A stretch of 64,000 nucleotides of DNA from Acidobacteriaceae bacterium (GCA_019233755.1 JAFAMD010000048.1:1-64000); one strand, 5' to 3'; counted from the first letter of the stretch, positions 23,997-32,327 are shown. The notes: generated by a model not told the origin, from the letters alone. Numbers and translations: made by a program.

Positions 23997-25178
23997 ATGA
24001 CGCTTTGTCCAGCAATTGAACCAGTTCTGCCTGAGGACAGCCAACACGTTTTGGACGATATGGCCTTTGACCTCACGTCTTCCGCGAACGCTCTCGCGAG
24101 TCAGCTCAGCCCCGTTGTTCGAACAAGCGTCGGCGAATTGGTCCGGTCGATGAACTGCTACTACTCCAATTTAATTGAGGGTCACAATACGGTGCCGCGC
24201 GATATCGAGCGCGCGCTGGCGCACGAGTATGCGTCGGAACCAACGCGCCGGAACCTCCAGCTCGAAGCCGTCGCGCATGTCCAACTTCAGCGCAAGATCG
24301 ACCTTGGCGCTGATCCTCCAGACGACCCTGTTTCGATCTCCTACATCCGATGGCTGCACCGCGAATTCTGCTCGCTATTGCCCCTAGAACTGCTCTGGGT
24401 TGAGAACCCCGATACGGGAGAAAGACTGTGCATCAGTCCCGGCGAGATTCGGACTCAAAGCGTCAAGATCGGATTCCATGTGCCTCCAAGCCCTGATGAG
24501 CTCGTCGCCTGTTTGGAACGATTTGAAGAAGCTTATTCCGGGGCACTGAGCAAGGTCCGGAGGGTGATCGCCGTCGCAGCGTCTCATCATCGGCTTTTGT
24601 GGATTCACCCGTTCCTCGATGGAAACGGTCGTGTCGCGCGACTCATGGCTCACGCCCTGCTTCGACGGCTGAACATTGGAAACAGTCTCTGGTCTGTGTC
24701 CCGAGGACTGGCCAGACACGTCTCCGAATACAAATCGCTGCTTATGGCGGCGGATAATCCTCGCCAAAATGATTACGACGGGCGCGGGAATCTCTCGGAA
24801 CGGGCCCTCTTTGAGTTTTGCGTCTTCTTCCTTCGCGTTTGCATGGATCAGGTGCAATTCATGCAATCGCTTTTGGACCCGGGCAACCTGCTTCGCAGAA
24901 TTGAACTCTTTTGCCGAGATGAAGTCGAAGCGGGACGCTTACCCAAGCTCGCGTATCAAGTCCTGCGCGAGGCCGTACTGCAAGGCGAAGTTGATCGCGG
25001 GCATGTCCCAAGCCTCATCGGCCTTCGAGAACGCGCCGCTCGTAACGTGACTGCTGCTTTGATAGCAAAAGGGCTTCTCACGTCCGAAACCCCTAAAGGG
25101 CCGCTCCGGCTTGCCTTTCCAACGGAGGCTGTCGAGCGGTGGTTCCCAGCGCTATACCCGGGTACTGGCCCAGGATAG
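23997..25178 (+). CDS. Fic-domain protein (probable AMPylase) with N-terminal inhibitory motif and C-terminal winged-helix-like region
   Basis: This 393-residue protein has the full Fic active-site motif HPFLDGNGRVAR (His204 onward), which transfers AMP or another nucleotide moiety to target hydroxyls. S57-NLI-E61-G62 matches the (S/T)xxxE(G/N) inhibitory helix, placed N-terminally as in class II Fic enzymes, so the protein is probably self-inhibited and needs no separate antitoxin. The C-terminal part (about 310-390: LAYQVLREAVLQGEVDRG ... ERAARNVTAALIAKGLLTSE) looks like a winged helix. No Shine-Dalgarno precedes ATG 23997. The neighbours give no target. Confidence 0.88.
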   Translation: MTLCPAIEPVLPEDSQHVLDDMAFDLTSSANALASQLSPVVRTSVGELVRSMNCYYSNLIEGHNTVPRDIERALAHEYASEPTRRNLQLEAVAHVQLQRKIDLGADPPDDPVSISYIRWLHREFCSLLPLELLWVENPDTGERLCISPGEIRTQSVKIGFHVPPSPDELVACLERFEEAYSGALSKVRRVIAVAASHHRLLWIHPFLDGNGRVARLMAHALLRRLNIGNSLWSVSRGLARHVSEYKSLLMAADNPRQNDYDGRGNLSERALFEFCVFFLRVCMDQVQFMQSLLDPGNLLRRIELFCRDEVEAGRLPKLAYQVLREAVLQGEVDRGHVPSLIGLRERAARNVTAALIAKGLLTSETPKGPLRLAFPTEAVERWFPALYPGTGPG

Positions 25179-25308: not shown

Positions 25309-25382
25309 TGGCTGGGAGGCAGGGACTCGAACCCCGATACGCAGATCCAGAGTCTGCAGTCTTACCATTAGACGACCTCCCA
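25309..25382 (-). tRNA. tRNA-Gln (anticodon CTG)
   Basis: Read on the minus strand, the 74-base sequence folds as a cloverleaf. The acceptor arm TGGGAGG pairs with CCTCCCA, followed by G73 and an encoded CCA. The anticodon stem GCAGA/TCTGC encloses loop CTCTGGA with anticodon CTG, reading CAG. The T arm contains GGTTCGAGTCC. The gene lies between fic and the sortase gene, 50 bases downstream of the sortase stop. The 130 bases between fic and the tRNA hold no supported gene. Confidence 0.95.
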
Positions 25383-25432: not shown

Positions 25433-26335
25433 CTAGGAAAAACGCCGTGGCGCAGGTGCTGATCGTCTGTCCCGTTTCGTGGCCGCGAGCTTTTCTTGGC
25501 CGGACGGGTTATTCGACACGAGCTTGGCCTCCACGATAAAGCGCTTCGGTGCAGACCCGACGTAGTAGAACGGGTAGCACGTAATCATCGTCAGAAGTTT
25601 CGGCTCGTTGGCGATCTCGGCGACGGGTATAAGACCGCCGCCATCCGACCGCAGAACGCTCACATCGGAGGGTCTCACGATCTTCGTTGCAAGCACCCGG
25701 TACGTGTAAGCTCCCAGAGAGTTCTGAAAGGTGACCAGATCGCCCGTTCTGATGTCTTTCAGCGCGCGGAATAGTGTATCGCGGTGAGCCGCGATGGCGA
25801 AGTTTCCTTGCTGACCCGGTAGTGCGGTCGACGGCACATGGCCGACCGCGAGACTGAGGACCCTCGCGTCAACGCCCTCACGAACCATCGCCGAGAGGTG
25901 TAGCCGGCTGATCTCGACACGCCCCAAAATCGATCCGTATACGGGCCGCGGCGCTTGCGGTGCGGGCGATGGCGGACGGGAAGCGGCCACATCCGGAGGC
26001 AGCGCGGTCCCGCCTCCTAACAAAGAGCCGAAAGGCATCGCGGCCCGGATAAAGTCTGCGAAGGTCACCGTTTTGTTGCCTGAAATCTGCTGATCGAACG
26101 CCCAGTTTTCGTAGGCTTGATAAACGTATTCATCTCCAAACGTGTACCCGTAATACCCAAGGGCGCATATTCCGGCGAGGAACAAAATGCGGCGGAGGTG
26201 ACGGAATGTGCCCTGCCTTTTCTGTCTCTGATCCGCGCCCACTCTCCGCCGCACATTATGGCTATGCTCGCCGGGCCGCCAGCCATAAGGACCGCCAGCC
26301 GGACGAATGATAACGGGGCCGGTTACGTTCGCCAT
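25433..26335 (-). CDS. sortase, class D-like
   Basis: ATG 26335 gives 300 residues. A basic cytosolic N-terminus precedes one membrane helix (IRRILFLAGICALGYYGY region, about 50-70), then a Pro-rich linker and the sortase beta-barrel (about 145-290). The catalytic triad is visible: His184 in AIAAHRD, Cys253 in MITCYPF and Arg265 in APKRFIV. The order and the cysteine context suit class D. Sortases cleave an LPxT-type signal and join the protein to an amine acceptor. The gene lies 4 bases after the VWA gene and near an LPHTA-ending exported protein, which points to a dedicated substrate. The stretch before the helix is unusually long. Confidence 0.9.
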   Translation of the reverse strand: MANVTGPVIIRPAGGPYGWRPGEHSHNVRRRVGADQRQKRQGTFRHLRRILFLAGICALGYYGYTFGDEYVYQAYENWAFDQQISGNKTVTFADFIRAAMPFGSLLGGGTALPPDVAASRPPSPAPQAPRPVYGSILGRVEISRLHLSAMVREGVDARVLSLAVGHVPSTALPGQQGNFAIAAHRDTLFRALKDIRTGDLVTFQNSLGAYTYRVLATKIVRPSDVSVLRSDGGGLIPVAEIANEPKLLTMITCYPFYYVGSAPKRFIVEAKLVSNNPSGQEKLAATKRDRRSAPAPRRFS

Positions 26336-26339
26336 AAGA

Positions 26340-27299
26340 TCAATGCGCAACTGTGTACGTCGTGCGCGTTCGCACGAGCAGTTTGTGCCCATCTTTTTGG
26401 GCAGTGACTTTCACGCTCCTTAGCGTGTGCTTGTCGTTCACTTCGTCGGGTGCATAGCCCAACGTGTAACGATTTCTAATATCTCTAGAGATCTCGTCGA
26501 AGGTCGGCTGCACTTGTTCCAGTCTCTGAGGCTCGAAGAACTTTCCACCGGTGATGTGGGCCATTTTTCGGAGAACACTCGGATTGGCGTCATCACCGTC
26601 TCCTTCGTATAACCCAACGGTGTAAATTGTGGCCCGCGAGGCTTTGATAATTTGCAGCAGCTCGGGGTAGGTCAACTTACTCACATTGTCCCGCCCATCG
26701 CTCACTACAATCAAAGTCCGCTTATCACGATGGCCGAGTTCCAGGTGCCGGATCGCGTAGGCGATGGCATCATAGAGGGCCGTGCGGCCTTGCGGTGCGC
26801 CAAAATAAAGCGCGGATCGAAGCTGTTGCAGATTGTCAGTGAACAGAACATCGTGGGATAGACCGCAGCCGACATAGTCATTGAAATTGACTACAAAAAA
26901 CTCGTCTTGCGGATTGCTCTCCTTGGCGAAGGCGAGTCCAGCCATGATGACGTACGGCCGTTTTCGGCCCATACTCCCGCTATTGTCAACAACCAGACCA
27001 AGCGTCACAGGCGTGTCCAGGCGAGCGAATTGCGTTATCTGGCGTGGGTGGCCGTCTTCGTATATCCGGAAATCGCTTTTGTCGAGATCCGTTACGTAAC
27101 CGCCCTTGGAGTCTTTCACGGACGCGTCCAGCAGGACAAGATCGACATTATCTGAGATCGTGTAGGCCCGTTGGTCAGAGCCGGACGATACCGGAGGCCG
27201 AACTGGCTGCCCTGACACCGCCCACGCTGCCGGTCCAGCCGCTACAGTGGTGACCAGCACGAGCAAGCCACGCTTCCAACCTGTGCGGCGCGTTGCCAT
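26340..27299 (-). CDS. exported VWFA-related domain protein (Acidobacterial type)
   Basis: This 319-residue protein has an N-terminal hydrophobic export segment (LLVLVTTVAAGPAAWAV). Next come the conserved VDLVLLDASVKDSKGGYVTDLDKSDFRIYEDG region of the VWFA-related proteins common in Acidobacteria, then a VWA domain with an intact MIDAS: DNSGSMG, the later Thr (GRTALYDAI) and IVVSDGRDN. It ends without a sortase signal. The gene sits between the LPHTA protein and the sortase, 4 bases upstream of the latter. It may be a ligand-binding or assembly partner; that is inference. Confidence 0.88.
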   Translation of the reverse strand: MATRRTGWKRGLLVLVTTVAAGPAAWAVSGQPVRPPVSSGSDQRAYTISDNVDLVLLDASVKDSKGGYVTDLDKSDFRIYEDGHPRQITQFARLDTPVTLGLVVDNSGSMGRKRPYVIMAGLAFAKESNPQDEFFVVNFNDYVGCGLSHDVLFTDNLQQLRSALYFGAPQGRTALYDAIAYAIRHLELGHRDKRTLIVVSDGRDNVSKLTYPELLQIIKASRATIYTVGLYEGDGDDANPSVLRKMAHITGGKFFEPQRLEQVQPTFDEISRDIRNRYTLGYAPDEVNDKHTLRSVKVTAQKDGHKLLVRTRTTYTVAH

Positions 27300-27342
27300 G
27301 GTCTGTTCTCTACATTCTTTTTACTGCAGCGGGCACTACCTC

Positions 27343-27391
27343 AACCCCAAAGACGCCAAGGCGCATAACCGGCCAGACGTCTTATGGGGTT
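27343..27391 (-). terminator. hairpin between the LPHTA-protein gene and the VWA gene
   Basis: AACCCCAAAGACG (27343-27355) pairs with CGTCTTATGGGGTT (27378-27391) with one bulged base and a loop of about 22 bases. It lies just downstream of the LPHTA-protein stop on the minus strand. No T run follows, so it may be a weak terminator or a processing/stability element that makes the first gene more abundant. Confidence 0.35.
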
Positions 27392-27410
27392 ACAACTGAG
27401 GATCGAAGTT

Positions 27411-28118
27411 TTAGATATTTTTCGTGGTTTGCGTCACCAGCGACAGTAACCCCGCAAGGCTGAGGCAAGCGGCTCCAAGCAAGCCCACCATAGGACTAAC
27501 GCTGGCAGTGTGGGGTAAGGCTGCCGGCTCCGGTTGTACAGGTACCGGCTGCGTGGTTGTGCTCGGTTGCGGCACCTCCGGCTGTGCTGCCGCTGTGGGT
27601 TGAGGCTCCGGTTCCGGAACAGGAGCAGGCTGCACTTCCGGCTGAGGCTGTGGTTCAGGCTCGGTGTAGGCCGCCGGTTGAGGGGCAGGTGCCGCGGACG
27701 CGAGCTGATCTACCAGCTTCTTTGGATAAGGGAATTCCTGACCGAAATTGTCACCAGGATAGAACCAGGCGCGAACTGCCTTCGGAACACCTGCCGGCGT
27801 TTCCCAAAATGCAAACTGAACGTGGTCCGCCGGCTGTAACCGGTAATTCGGAATCGCAAGAATCGTCGTTTCGAGGTGCCGCTGATCCTTGTCATAAATC
27901 TGTACAATGTGCCGGTCAGATGGAGAGTCCATCAGTTTCCAGACATACGTTCCCGGGTCGAGAACTTTGTTACCGGCAATGATTGGTTGCTGGACAGTGA
28001 CGACGGTCATCTTGTTCCACCCGTCCGCATGAGCTTTCGGTACGAACGAAGTGGCGAGTAGACCGACACCTATTACCGCCAAGGCACCAATGTAAAAGGC
28101 TCGAAATCTTCGACTCAT
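27411..28118 (-). CDS. exported Pro-rich protein with C-terminal sortase-like sorting signal (LPHTA)
   Basis: ATG 28118 is preceded by a strong GGAGGAGA and gives 235 residues. There is a signal peptide (FRAFYIGALAVIGVGLLATSFVPKAHA) and a folded domain (about 32-130: VQQPIIAGNKVLDPGTYVWKL ... FAFWETPAGVPKAVRAWFYPG). A Pro/Glu/Gln linker (about 140-198) follows. The end is LPHTAS (from residue 201), a hydrophobic segment (MVGLLGAACLSLAGLLSLV) and a short tail with one Lys. That is a sortase sorting signal of the LPxTA kind used by class D sortases. It is probably the substrate of the sortase two genes downstream. The biochemical role of the folded domain is unknown. Confidence 0.8.
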   Translation of the reverse strand: MSRRFRAFYIGALAVIGVGLLATSFVPKAHADGWNKMTVVTVQQPIIAGNKVLDPGTYVWKLMDSPSDRHIVQIYDKDQRHLETTILAIPNYRLQPADHVQFAFWETPAGVPKAVRAWFYPGDNFGQEFPYPKKLVDQLASAAPAPQPAAYTEPEPQPQPEVQPAPVPEPEPQPTAAAQPEVPQPSTTTQPVPVQPEPAALPHTASVSPMVGLLGAACLSLAGLLSLVTQTTKNI

Positions 28119-28505: not shown

Positions 28506-29609
28506 TTAGTGTTTCGTCAGTGCCCGCACCGGCTGCGCCAGGTACGGCCAGTGAGGCACGAACTGAAAGTGATAGCGATAAATCAGTAGCGCTATCAGGC
28601 CCGCCGCAACTAAGAGCATCGCCAGAATTGCTAAGACGACCTTTGTCCAGGGGAATTTCCTTCCTTCACGCCGCATCACCAGTAGTTGGCTTGCGAACAC
28701 GCCGACGAAAAACAGCAACACCATCGGCACCGCGAAGAGCATCATGTTGAACACGTCGGGTGTCGGCGTGACAACAGCGGCAATGATGGTGATGGCGAGA
28801 ATTGCGTACCGGCTGTGCCGTAGCAGGAAGCGCGGCGAAGCGAGGCGCAGCAGAGTCAGAAAGAAGATGATGACGGGCATCTCAAACACGAGGCCCACAC
28901 CAAGCGTTACGTTTACGAACAGATCGAAATACTCGTTAATGGAAACAACCGGCGTTACGTGGACGTCGCGGCCGATGCCCAAGAGAAATTCAAGACCATA
29001 ACGGAACGCGACGAAATAGGCGAAACAGCCGCCCGTGATGAACAACCCGGCCGTGCAGAGAATAAACGGCACTGCCCATCTCTTTTCGCGCTTATAGAGG
29101 CCCGGCGAAATAAATCCCCAGACCTGGTACAACACCCATGGGGAACCGAGGAAGATCGAGACCAGCAGGGGCAGTTTCAAATAGATGACATTGAACTGCT
29201 CCATCGGCGTGATCTGGGCCAGGTTCGGCGGATTTATGCCCAGGTGCTTCAGAGCGATTACGGCCGGCGCCGAAACCACCTCCCAAAGCTGCTTGCAAAA
29301 GCCGATACTAACCATGAACGCGACAGCAAGACCCAGCAGCGCCCGAATAATTCGTGTGCGCAGTTCCTCCAGGTGCTCCATGAAGGACATGCGCAGCATG
29401 CCCCTCTCTTCTTCGTCCCCCTCGTCTTCATCGCTATCGGAGGGTGGAGGCGGAGGCGGCGTTACCGGAGGTGCCGCTGCGGGCAGATTCGGCGAAGCCG
29501 TTGCGTCAGGCGGAGTGGTGGCAGACGCTTCCGAAACCGTACTGGTAACGGTGCTGTCGATTGCACCCTCCCCGTTTGGAGTTCCGTACTCCTTTGTATC
29601 GTCCAGCAT
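28506..29609 (-). CDS. tatC: Sec-independent protein translocase TatC with acidic/Pro-rich N-terminal extension
   Basis: TatC is the six-helix receptor of the Tat pathway, which exports folded proteins with twin-arginine signals. The core starts near residue 72 with MRMSFMEHLEELRTRIIRAL, the conserved cytosolic FMEHLEELR motif. The usual helices follow, with QITPMEQFNVIYLKL, SPWVLYQVWGFISPGLYKREKR and later family motifs. The protein is 367 residues against about 250 typically; the extra part is an N-terminal extension of about 70 residues rich in Thr, Pro, Asp and Glu, and a moderate C-terminal tail. The gene follows tatA/B by 13 bases. Confidence 0.93.
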   Translation of the reverse strand: MLDDTKEYGTPNGEGAIDSTVTSTVSEASATTPPDATASPNLPAAAPPVTPPPPPPSDSDEDEGDEEERGMLRMSFMEHLEELRTRIIRALLGLAVAFMVSIGFCKQLWEVVSAPAVIALKHLGINPPNLAQITPMEQFNVIYLKLPLLVSIFLGSPWVLYQVWGFISPGLYKREKRWAVPFILCTAGLFITGGCFAYFVAFRYGLEFLLGIGRDVHVTPVVSINEYFDLFVNVTLGVGLVFEMPVIIFFLTLLRLASPRFLLRHSRYAILAITIIAAVVTPTPDVFNMMLFAVPMVLLFFVGVFASQLLVMRREGRKFPWTKVVLAILAMLLVAAGLIALLIYRYHFQFVPHWPYLAQPVRALTKH

Positions 29610-29622
29610 TGATTTCTAATGA

Positions 29623-30066
29623 CTACGCAGGGTGCTGCTCTTCGCCAGCGACGTGCTCGACCGGCTGAGCACTATTCGATCGTGCAACCGTTCCGTTTAC
29701 CGGTAAGTGGGCGGGCGGAGCAGAAGCCGCTTCGCTCGGCGGCTCGCTGATGCCTGGCGTGTTGTAAGAATGCTCAGAGGTCGTGCCTGGCTGCGGTTCC
29801 TGTCCATACTCATCATACGGATACGATTGCCGGGGAGATGAGTAGTCCGGCTTGTACTCCGTGGAGGAGTATTTTTCCAGATTTGCCTCACGCTCAAGTT
29901 CACGCATATGCGATTCGAAGGTAGTCTTGAGCTCATTCTTGGCGCGGCGGAACTCGGTCAGCCCCTTGCCGACGAGCCGGCCCAATTCAGGCAGCTTCTT
30001 CGGGCCAAATAGCACGAGCGCAAGGACGAATATAAAGATCATCTCCTGCGCGCCGATCGGTCCCAT
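29623..30066 (-). CDS. TatA/TatB-family twin-arginine translocase subunit
   Basis: This 147-residue protein has a single N-terminal membrane helix (IGAQEMIFIFVLALVLFGP), the hinge motif FGPKKLPELGRLVGKGL and an amphipathic helix rich in Arg, Glu and Lys (to about 60). A long Pro/Ser/Glu-rich tail completes it. The short N-terminus and FGPKKLP hinge fit both TatA and TatB; the acidic MGPIGAQE start leans toward TatB-like, but with no second TatA copy here it may serve both roles. It is the first gene of the pair with tatC. Confidence 0.9.
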   Translation of the reverse strand: MGPIGAQEMIFIFVLALVLFGPKKLPELGRLVGKGLTEFRRAKNELKTTFESHMRELEREANLEKYSSTEYKPDYSSPRQSYPYDEYGQEPQPGTTSEHSYNTPGISEPPSEAASAPPAHLPVNGTVARSNSAQPVEHVAGEEQHPA

Positions 30067-30176: not shown

Positions 30177-32327
30177 ATGCGGTTTGCCTTTATTTGCCTG
30201 CTGGCGACCCTGCCTTTTGTATCTAAGGCGCAGGTAGATTTGAAAGCCGACGGGAATGACCATGTCTCGGTCACAATCAGCGGCCAGCCGTTCTCGGACT
30301 TCTATACAGGTCCCGCTTACGCCAAGCCGTTTCTCGCGCCGCTTCGCTCGGCGGACGGGCTGATCGTATCGCGCCGTTTCCCGATGGAGATGGTCGCCGG
30401 CGAATCGCGCGACCATCCCCACCACCGGGGGCTGTGGATCGGTTACGGAGATGTGAGCGGAATCAACTTCTGGGAGAACGATCCGAACTCGAGCACCAGC
30501 AAAGGCAATCCGGCTGTGAAGGGAACAATTGTCCTCCGCAACCTTGACGCCGTTGAACCGGGGACGCGCTTCGGCCGGATCGTCGCGACCTTCGGATGGG
30601 AAGCGCCAGGCAGCGAAGAAATCCTCGAAGAGCGGCGTACCATGACCTTCTTCGCTGACCGAGACGTGCGCCGCATCGATATAGAAGCGGTCTTGACCGC
30701 GAAAGAGGAAGCCGAGTTCGGCGATACGAAAGAAGGCTTCTTTGCGCTTAGCGTGGCGGACGGCCTGGCGGGGAAGAACGGTGGAATCATCCGAAACTCG
30801 GCAGGTCTCGAAGGAGAGAAGAACGTTTGGGGCAAGCGTGCGGACTGGGTGGATTACTCCGGAGCGGTGGACGGCCGGAAAGTCGGTATCACGATCTACG
30901 ACGATCCGCGGAATTACCATCACCCGCCGCGCTGGCATGTTCGGGATTACGGCTTATTCGCCGCGAATCCTTTCGGTGCAAAAGATTTCGACCCGCGATC
31001 AAACGATCGCGCAGGCTACGATCTTCACCCGGGTGAGTCGTTAAGCTTTCGCTATCGCGTCATCATCCATTCCGGCGAAGTGCCGATTCCGCCTGCCGCG
31101 TGGGCCTCGGCGGACTTCAATGCCGAGGCGGCAACGAACGCCTGGCTGGCAACCCTGCCGCCGGCGGCAAGGGCAAGGTCGGATGCCTATTTCGAAGGTG
31201 GATACTGGCTCATGCTATGGGATTTCCTCTATCTCCTTGCCATTCTGTTCTTCCTGCTCGAGAGCGGGCTGTCGGCGCGGATGCGGAATTGGGCGGAGCG
31301 ATTGACGCGCGTTGGGTGGCTGCAGACCTTCCTGTACTGGATCGCGTTCGCCCTCGCGGCGGCGCTGCTGACATTTCCCTTGACCGTATATGAGGACTTC
31401 TTCCGCGAGCACCAATATGGGTTGGCGAATCAGACCTTTGCCGGATGGCTGCGTGATGCAGTCATCGGGTTCGGGGCCGGCACACTGTTGTCGGGCATCG
31501 CGGTCGCCACGCTGCTGGTCATCGTTCAGCGCTGTCCGCGAACCTGGCATTTCTGGGGGACTTTGGCTGCCATCGCGTTCCTCATTGTCGGCATCATGAT
31601 TCAGCCCGTTTTTCTTGCGCCGCTATTCAACACGTACACGCCACTGAAAAACACTCCCATCAAGAGCGAAATCCTGAGCCTCGCTCGAGAAAACGGCATT
31701 CCGGCCAGGGATGTGTACGAAGTCAACGAATCGAAACAGAGCAACCGCGTAAGTGCAAACGTCAGCGGCCTGTTCGGGACCGACCGGATCACTCTTAACG
31801 ACAACCTGCTGAGGCGCTGTTCCCCGGGCGCCATTCTCTCGGTCATGGGGCACGAAATGGGGCACTACGTGATGCACCATATCGCGAACGGCCTGTTGCT
31901 CTCTTCGGCCGCTTGCGCCGCTGCGTTCTGGATACTGCGATGGTTGCTCGGTTGGTCAATCGGTCGCTGGGGCCCGCGATGGCAGATCCGCGGCATCGAG
32001 GATGCTGCCATGCTGCCCCTGGCGGCAATCATTCTGGTCACAATAAGCTTGCTTGCAACCCCGATCAGCAACACATTAACCCGGACCCAGGAGTACGAGG
32101 CGGACATCTTTGGGCTGAACGCCGCTCGCCAGCCGGACGGCGAAGCGGAAGTGGACCTGTTGCTGGGTGAGTACCGGAAGCTCAATCCCGCGCCAGTGGA
32201 AGAGTTTCTGTTCTTTGATCACCCGAGCGGTCGAGCCCGGATTTACGCTGCCATGCGGTGGAAGGCTGAGAATCTGTGCCTCTTCGACCCGGCGCTTGCG
32301 TGCAAAAACCAGCCCGCACCGCGGTAA
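30177..32327 (+). CDS. DUF6807 (PmoA-like) domain fused to a Ste24-type M48 membrane protease
   Basis: This is one uninterrupted frame of 716 residues. A signal peptide (MRFAFICLLATLPFVSKAQ) leads into a DUF6807/PmoA-like domain (about 20-300), with DHPHHRGLWIGYGDVSGINFWEN and HVRDYGLFAANPFGAKDF. This Pfam name does not mean methane oxidation. From about residue 315 comes a Ste24/CAAX-protease-like part beginning ATNAWLATLPPAARARSDAYFEGGYW, with several membrane helices and the zinc motif HEMGH (His559, Glu560, His563). A second zinc-ligand region follows (TQEYEADIFGL). Each half normally occurs as its own protein. The junction is clean. The start is divergent from tatA/B. Confidence 0.85.
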   Translation: MRFAFICLLATLPFVSKAQVDLKADGNDHVSVTISGQPFSDFYTGPAYAKPFLAPLRSADGLIVSRRFPMEMVAGESRDHPHHRGLWIGYGDVSGINFWENDPNSSTSKGNPAVKGTIVLRNLDAVEPGTRFGRIVATFGWEAPGSEEILEERRTMTFFADRDVRRIDIEAVLTAKEEAEFGDTKEGFFALSVADGLAGKNGGIIRNSAGLEGEKNVWGKRADWVDYSGAVDGRKVGITIYDDPRNYHHPPRWHVRDYGLFAANPFGAKDFDPRSNDRAGYDLHPGESLSFRYRVIIHSGEVPIPPAAWASADFNAEAATNAWLATLPPAARARSDAYFEGGYWLMLWDFLYLLAILFFLLESGLSARMRNWAERLTRVGWLQTFLYWIAFALAAALLTFPLTVYEDFFREHQYGLANQTFAGWLRDAVIGFGAGTLLSGIAVATLLVIVQRCPRTWHFWGTLAAIAFLIVGIMIQPVFLAPLFNTYTPLKNTPIKSEILSLARENGIPARDVYEVNESKQSNRVSANVSGLFGTDRITLNDNLLRRCSPGAILSVMGHEMGHYVMHHIANGLLLSSAACAAAFWILRWLLGWSIGRWGPRWQIRGIEDAAMLPLAAIILVTISLLATPISNTLTRTQEYEADIFGLNAARQPDGEAEVDLLLGEYRKLNPAPVEEFLFFDHPSGRARIYAAMRWKAENLCLFDPALACKNQPAPR

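Follow-up and report, generated by a model that had tools for sequence, protein, structure and literature searches.

A candidate dedicated sortase-substrate cassette with an LPxTA-type sorting tail in diderm Acidobacteriota

Sortases are taught as Gram-positive enzymes; Bacillus anthracis SrtC is a class D sortase, and the sorting motif of class E is LAxTG. What the few sortases of diderms anchor, and to what, is an old question. Marine Gram-negative bacteria have a dedicated sortase of class GN (TIGR03784) with a VWA/VIT-LPXTG target (TIGR03788) (PMC3237569). In B. anthracis, SrtC cleaves its LPNTA motif at the Thr-Ala bond, with the m-Dpm amine as acceptor (PMC3297441). Our analysis of a 64-kb stretch of acidobacterial DNA (hereafter the window) identifies three genes, for a sortase, a von Willebrand factor A-type (VWA) protein and a small exported protein with an LPHTA sorting tail, that make the acceptor of a diderm sortase directly testable. 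No description of an Acidobacteriota sortase pair was found in the literature, where coverage of subscription journals was thin.

The host is a diderm member of the Acidobacteriota, order Bryobacterales, with a 4.95-Mb genome (G000, contig C8; completeness 93%); the closest named relatives of its sortase are found in Bryobacterales/Bryobacteraceae MAGs and in strain KBS 96. A genome search returned two Omp85/BamA-type proteins above cut-off, which fits a diderm. Omp85 was used as the diderm marker after a search of the genome with the Pfam model for LptD found nothing; the LptD of this organism may be divergent or may lie in the missing part of the assembly. The first-pass annotation had described a sortase, a VWA protein with an intact MIDAS and an LPHTA protein clustered in a probable diderm, and the sequence bears out each of these elements and their arrangement. 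On the minus strand, the LPHTA substrate gene (27411..28118) is followed in the direction of transcription by the VWA gene (26340..27299) and the sortase gene (25433..26335); the VWA stop ends at 26340 and the sortase ATG lies at 26335, a gap of four bases.

Several features of the neighborhood were recorded. The LPHTA-VWA intergenic gap (27300-27412, minus strand) contains a stable hairpin of -36 kcal/mol (z -2.28; matched by 3 of 200 shuffled sequences) that may hold expression of the VWA-sortase pair below that of the substrate. The LPHTA gene is immediately preceded by tatC and tatA (28506-30066), which are transcribed the same way; they occupy this position only in genomes of the same genus and are apparently mere neighbors. 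A tRNA-Gln (ctg) lies directly downstream of the sortase on the same strand (25309-25382), with a Fic-domain gene beyond it on the opposite strand (23997-25178), and a 716-aa ORF (30177-32327) fuses a DUF6807 domain (residues 30-302) to a full M48 peptidase with a membrane part (333-694). Several Bryobacterales loci (L148, L177 and L203) have a malic-enzyme gene between the LPxTA and VWA genes and a large glycosyltransferase gene downstream of the sortase.

The predicted sortase (300 aa) has an N-terminal membrane helix and the residues His184, Cys253 and Arg265 (numbered on the 300-aa reading), which are invariant in relatives (145/145, 146/146 and 142/142, respectively). It belongs to the sortase superfamily (PF04203, 99.9 bits; cut-off 26.6) and scores below the curated cut-offs for class D (NF033746, 110 bits against 165), LPxTATN-specific class D (NF058671, 118 against 140), class E (NF033747, 102 against 160) and class GN (TIGR03784, 79 against 158); the NCBIfam class C model also matches, but below its curated cut-off. 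Since every curated class cut-off is missed, acceptor specificity is not readable from class membership. The predicted structure (pLDDT 81) has the sortase fold and matches many sortases, with 4d70 first by Foldseek E-value; the nearest solved structures by sequence are 2ln7, which we take to be a class D sortase, 4d70 (class D), and 5go6 and 5go5 (class E). Class D is only the nearest class, by profile score, PDB sequence and Foldseek E-value, with no curated cut-off reached. Actinobacterial sortases form a separate, fully supported group in the tree.

The putative substrate (235 aa) starts at the ATG at 28118, directly downstream of a strong Shine-Dalgarno-like sequence, GGAGGAGAG. It comprises, all on the minus strand, a Sec-like signal peptide, MSRRFRAFYIGALAVIGVGLLATSFVPK, followed by AHAD (28035..28118; cleavage site predicted), a beta-rich N-domain of about 106 aa (27717..28034), a Pro/Ala/Glu/Gln-rich linker of 66 aa (27519..27716), the LPHTA motif (27504..27518), and a hydrophobic helix with a short tail (27414..27503); the C-terminal signal reads LPHTASVSPMVGLLGAACLSLAGLLSLVTQTTKNI. 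The tail, TQTTKNI, is weakly basic, and those of relatives are more basic. The curated LPXTG anchor models TIGR01167 and PF00746 do not match the window protein; an orthologue ending in LPHTG (L033) passes both (20.7 against a cut-off of 15.9 and 24.6 against 20, respectively). Leaders of orthologues are varied and Sec-like, and no RR motif is conserved among them. Export through Tat was considered and rejected, because tatA and tatC are upstream only in the same genus and the leaders of relatives have no conserved twin-arginine.

No Pfam or NCBIfam family matched the N-domain. AlphaFold predicts a confident beta-rich domain (pLDDT 88.6, pTM 0.82; three of the five models were poor), and nothing meaningfully similar was found when this fold was searched against the PDB (Foldseek, VIA) and viral structure libraries (best E 0.8, best Z 3.5); rows suggesting a PH/EVH1-like domain were too weak and were not used. 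Such weak or absent matches to a predicted model do not prove a new fold. Orthologues from the same genus keep a linker of 65-69 aa, about one third of it Pro, although its sequence diverges; across the order the median length is 80 aa. Paralogues of the N-domain without a sorting tail were also seen (L208, L216, L217, L222, L223, L228, L229, L231, L232 and L234), often in tandem arrays and away from the sortase; their existence suggests that the domain also works unanchored.

Under a fixed rule ([LM]PxT[ASGD], a helix and a short tail), the sorting tail was found in 93 of 96 N-domain proteins, most commonly as LPKTA, LPATA or LPHTA. Among the remaining ORFs of 110 aa or more in the same regions, 3 of 3,493 had it; the three background tails belong to alternative substrates (L149, L197 and L199) that are themselves adjacent to a sortase. 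Among the N-domain proteins in which no tail was recognized, that of L142 has its tail masked by N and that of L145 ends differently. The LPHTA protein is the only ORF in the window with an [LIVM]PxT motif and helix tail, and the genome-wide count, made by profile search, gave one confident match (E 1.5e-12), the next (0.1) being without the motif. No second sortase was found in this genome at its 93% completeness.

Two further comparisons tie the tail to the enzyme. In six genomes with multiple copies of the N-domain, copies next to a sortase tend to be the tailed ones (11/5/2/14, p 0.003, with adjacency judged by hand), and paralogues away from a sortase are mostly without a tail; tailed copies with no sortase seen nearby occur in some genomes and count against the anchoring model set out below. 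A second substrate subtype (IWxxGKNYGYEF) has mostly MPxTS/D, not LPxTA, with M first in 9 of 13 proteins versus 2 of 80, and the sortases that go with it fall in a supported clade of their own. The motif thus changes in step with the enzyme, as a true enzyme-substrate pair predicts.

Genome lists compiled by hand from search outputs were used for the co-occurrence tests. Of 257 genomes from the order, 156 encode a member of the sortase family and 152 the substrate N-domain: 145 genomes have both, 11 the sortase only, 7 the N-domain only and 94 neither (Fisher p 2.6e-48, a value that ignores relatedness). A phylum sample of 396 genomes, of which about one fifth have the sortase, gave 39, 42, 10 and 305 in the same order, or 36, 42, 10 and 305 with the Bryobacterales removed, and outside the order the two genes lie within 5 kb of each other in 32 genomes. 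Sortase-only genomes are common there, so other substrates are probably used. The first-pass annotation had named two findings that would refute it, an LPHTA motif not conserved in orthologues and a lack of co-occurrence with the sortase. Both were tested and neither was borne out, as LPxT(A/G/S/D) tails are conserved and co-occurrence is very strong; its description of a dedicated and poorly described system agrees with the single sortase and single tail of this genome, with an N-domain in no Pfam or NCBIfam family, and with the literature search.

Adjacency was scored in a non-random sample of the best sortase matches, mostly one to three per genus, comprising 100 regions from about 50 genera with 101 sortase ORF calls (one sortase was called twice). 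A same-strand N-domain protein lies within 5 kb of 94 of these calls, a VWA protein of the window's kind accompanies 65, and 63 have both. There are a few exceptions: in L186 the substrate adjoins the sortase on the opposite strand; in L149, L197 and L199 a different small exported LPxT-tailed protein does so; and L175 and L187, the only 2 of 100 loci without an adjoining N-domain or other LPxT protein, are at contig ends. Marine and other Gammaproteobacteria (L056, L057, L059, L063, L066, L067, L068 and L077) encode a related sortase directly before a small exported LPTTA, LPKTA or LPSTA protein, and the sortase of L199, with its other substrate domain, groups with these enzymes. None of the alternative substrates, acidobacterial or gammaproteobacterial, showed a profile relation to the N-domain; between the Acidobacteriota and gammaproteobacterial proteins there is only a weak common segment (hhalign probability 57%, E 1e-4).

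Starting from the gene set, catalytic residues, conserved tail, enzyme-substrate pairing and clustering of linked VWA copies, which come from comparing sequences, we infer a course of cleavage, attachment to peptidoglycan, spatial reach and VWA function. After export, probably through Sec, the LPHTA protein would stay tethered to the inner membrane by its C-terminal helix, the LPHTA site facing the periplasm. An inner-membrane sortase would then cut LPHT|A via Cys253, aided by His184 and Arg265, and the Thr carboxylate would be passed, most likely, to the side-chain amine of meso-diaminopimelate in lipid II, so that the substrate becomes bound to the thin peptidoglycan. That the sortase acts on the LPHTA tail is very probable. 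Peptidoglycan is by analogy a moderately likely acceptor, favored because SrtC of B. anthracis, which acts on an LPxTA motif, uses the m-Dpm amine; the weakly basic tail of the window protein counts against the model as a whole. Taken whole, with attachment to peptidoglycan included, a dedicated one-sortase, one-substrate anchoring cassette of a diderm seems to us a reasonably likely reading.

With its Pro-rich linker (about 66-100 aa), the bound protein might extend its N-domain through the periplasm in the direction of the outer membrane; going by general polymer dimensions, 66-100 fully extended residues would span about 20-30 nm, which is on the scale of the periplasm. We suggest tentatively, as a possibility that may well fail, that the product is a sortase-built peptidoglycan tether, with its C-terminus on the thin wall and a linker carrying the N-domain to the outer membrane or to the VWA partner. 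Such a tether, if real, would be a sortase-made counterpart of Braun's lipoprotein that is widespread in Acidobacteriota and unrecognized as a system.

The main rival to a peptidoglycan acceptor is simple release from the membrane, in which the sortase would be mainly a processing protease, cutting the LPHTA protein off its helix by hydrolysis or with a small-molecule acceptor and freeing it to the periplasm, outer membrane or surface. Other C-terminal sorting systems of diderms (GlyGly-CTERM and PEP-CTERM) are thought to release their proteins outward, and adjacent dedicated pairs are known among such systems (PMC3237569, PMC1569441). In contrast, the sortases of known function are transpeptidases, and a long Pro-rich linker ahead of the motif resembles that of wall-anchored proteins; we regard release as unlikely.

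The VWA protein carries a signal peptide, has no LPxT tail, and belongs to TIGR03436 (acidobact_VWFA; 179 bits, cut-off 81.25); against the GN target model TIGR03788 it scores 21.5 bits (cut-off 552). Its MIDAS is intact and conserved in relatives (D105, S107, T173 and D201 in 76/77 each, S109 in 67/76). The genome contains about 20 TIGR03436 paralogues. In the tree, 22 of 23 sortase-locus VWA rows form one group, which an own-genome paralogue joins at an open fork, and the remaining row (L188) is a VWA gene that does not adjoin its sortase; the linked copies cluster apart from most of the 13 own-genome paralogues, which indicates a particular part of the family and not a random neighbor. About one third of sortase loci have no VWA gene, so the protein is accessory to the core pair and not needed for the core reaction. 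It is probably a functional partner of the system, and would cooperate with the N-domain, in the periplasm and in a MIDAS-dependent way, either as an assembly factor or as a ligand.

This gene also bears on the proposal that the acceptor is a protein, the sortase linking the LPHTA substrate either to the VWA protein or to a protein of the outer membrane. In its favor, the VWA gene directly precedes the sortase gene and its linked copies cluster; against it, the loci without a VWA gene retain their LPxT protein, and the VWA protein showed no conserved acceptor motif. This reaction appears very improbable.

A pilus-like polymer, in which LPHTA subunits are joined via a lysine (in F-x-YPK at the end of the N-domain, which resembles a pilin motif) and tipped by the VWA protein as adhesin, is very improbable. 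VWA proteins are common tip adhesins of sortase pili, and of the 64 substrates encoded in loci with a VWA gene, 53 have a YPK-type lysine; the other 11 lack a matching lysine motif (they have YPR, YSP, YPA or others), a few having a lysine one step off, and in the second substrate subtype that position is mostly N, D or P. On this count the pilin-motif lysine is not strictly conserved. Further evidence against a pilus is that the VWA protein has no LPxT tail, that there is one small subunit only, and that no class C match exceeds its cut-off. Accidental adjacency of the three genes, for which we found no evidence (in the same genus tatA/tatC are also upstream, apparently as mere neighbors), is refuted by the adjacency and co-occurrence tests, by recurrence in about 50 genera and outside the order, and by a background tail rate of about 0.1% or less, and is extremely improbable.

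With a single enzyme and a single substrate, the cassette makes a clean test case in a major soil order, and it is present in a named strain, Acidobacteriaceae bacterium KBS 96 (L038). It also brings a substrate domain that none of the family databases searched contains, and a VWA group singled out of a very large, unexplained paralogous family.

Several known systems resemble the set in part. Braun's lipoprotein and the LD-transpeptidases provide a functional analogy only, should the product be bound to peptidoglycan and extend to the outer membrane (for background, see PMC8263019); the enzyme is unrelated, and no lipidation signal was seen in the window protein. The gammaproteobacterial sortase-LPTTA pairs (L057, L059, L063, L066, L067, L068 and L077) share a diderm host and a sortase beside one small exported tailed protein, but their substrate has another N-domain, its gene lies downstream, and no such VWA gene was found alongside. 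Actinobacterial class E sortases (NF033747) have a similar domain score and fold; the window enzyme is below their cut-off, is outside their tree group, and is paired with LPxTA in place of the class E motif. Class D (B. anthracis SrtC/LPNTA, NF033746, NF058671) shares the LPxTA-type motif and is nearest by profile, sequence and Foldseek, and differs in that both curated cut-offs are missed, the host here is a diderm and the substrate architecture is different. With class GN the set has in common a diderm host, a sortase that adjoins one target gene, a VWA domain in the cassette and one-to-one pairing. The sortase and VWA protein of the window both fail the GN cut-offs, and the GN VWA/VIT protein itself bears the LPXTG, whereas in the window the VWA domain and the sorting tail are carried by different proteins, the tail by a small Pro-rich one whose domain is unrelated. 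Of the published concepts, the GN sortase/TIGR03788 pair comes closest.
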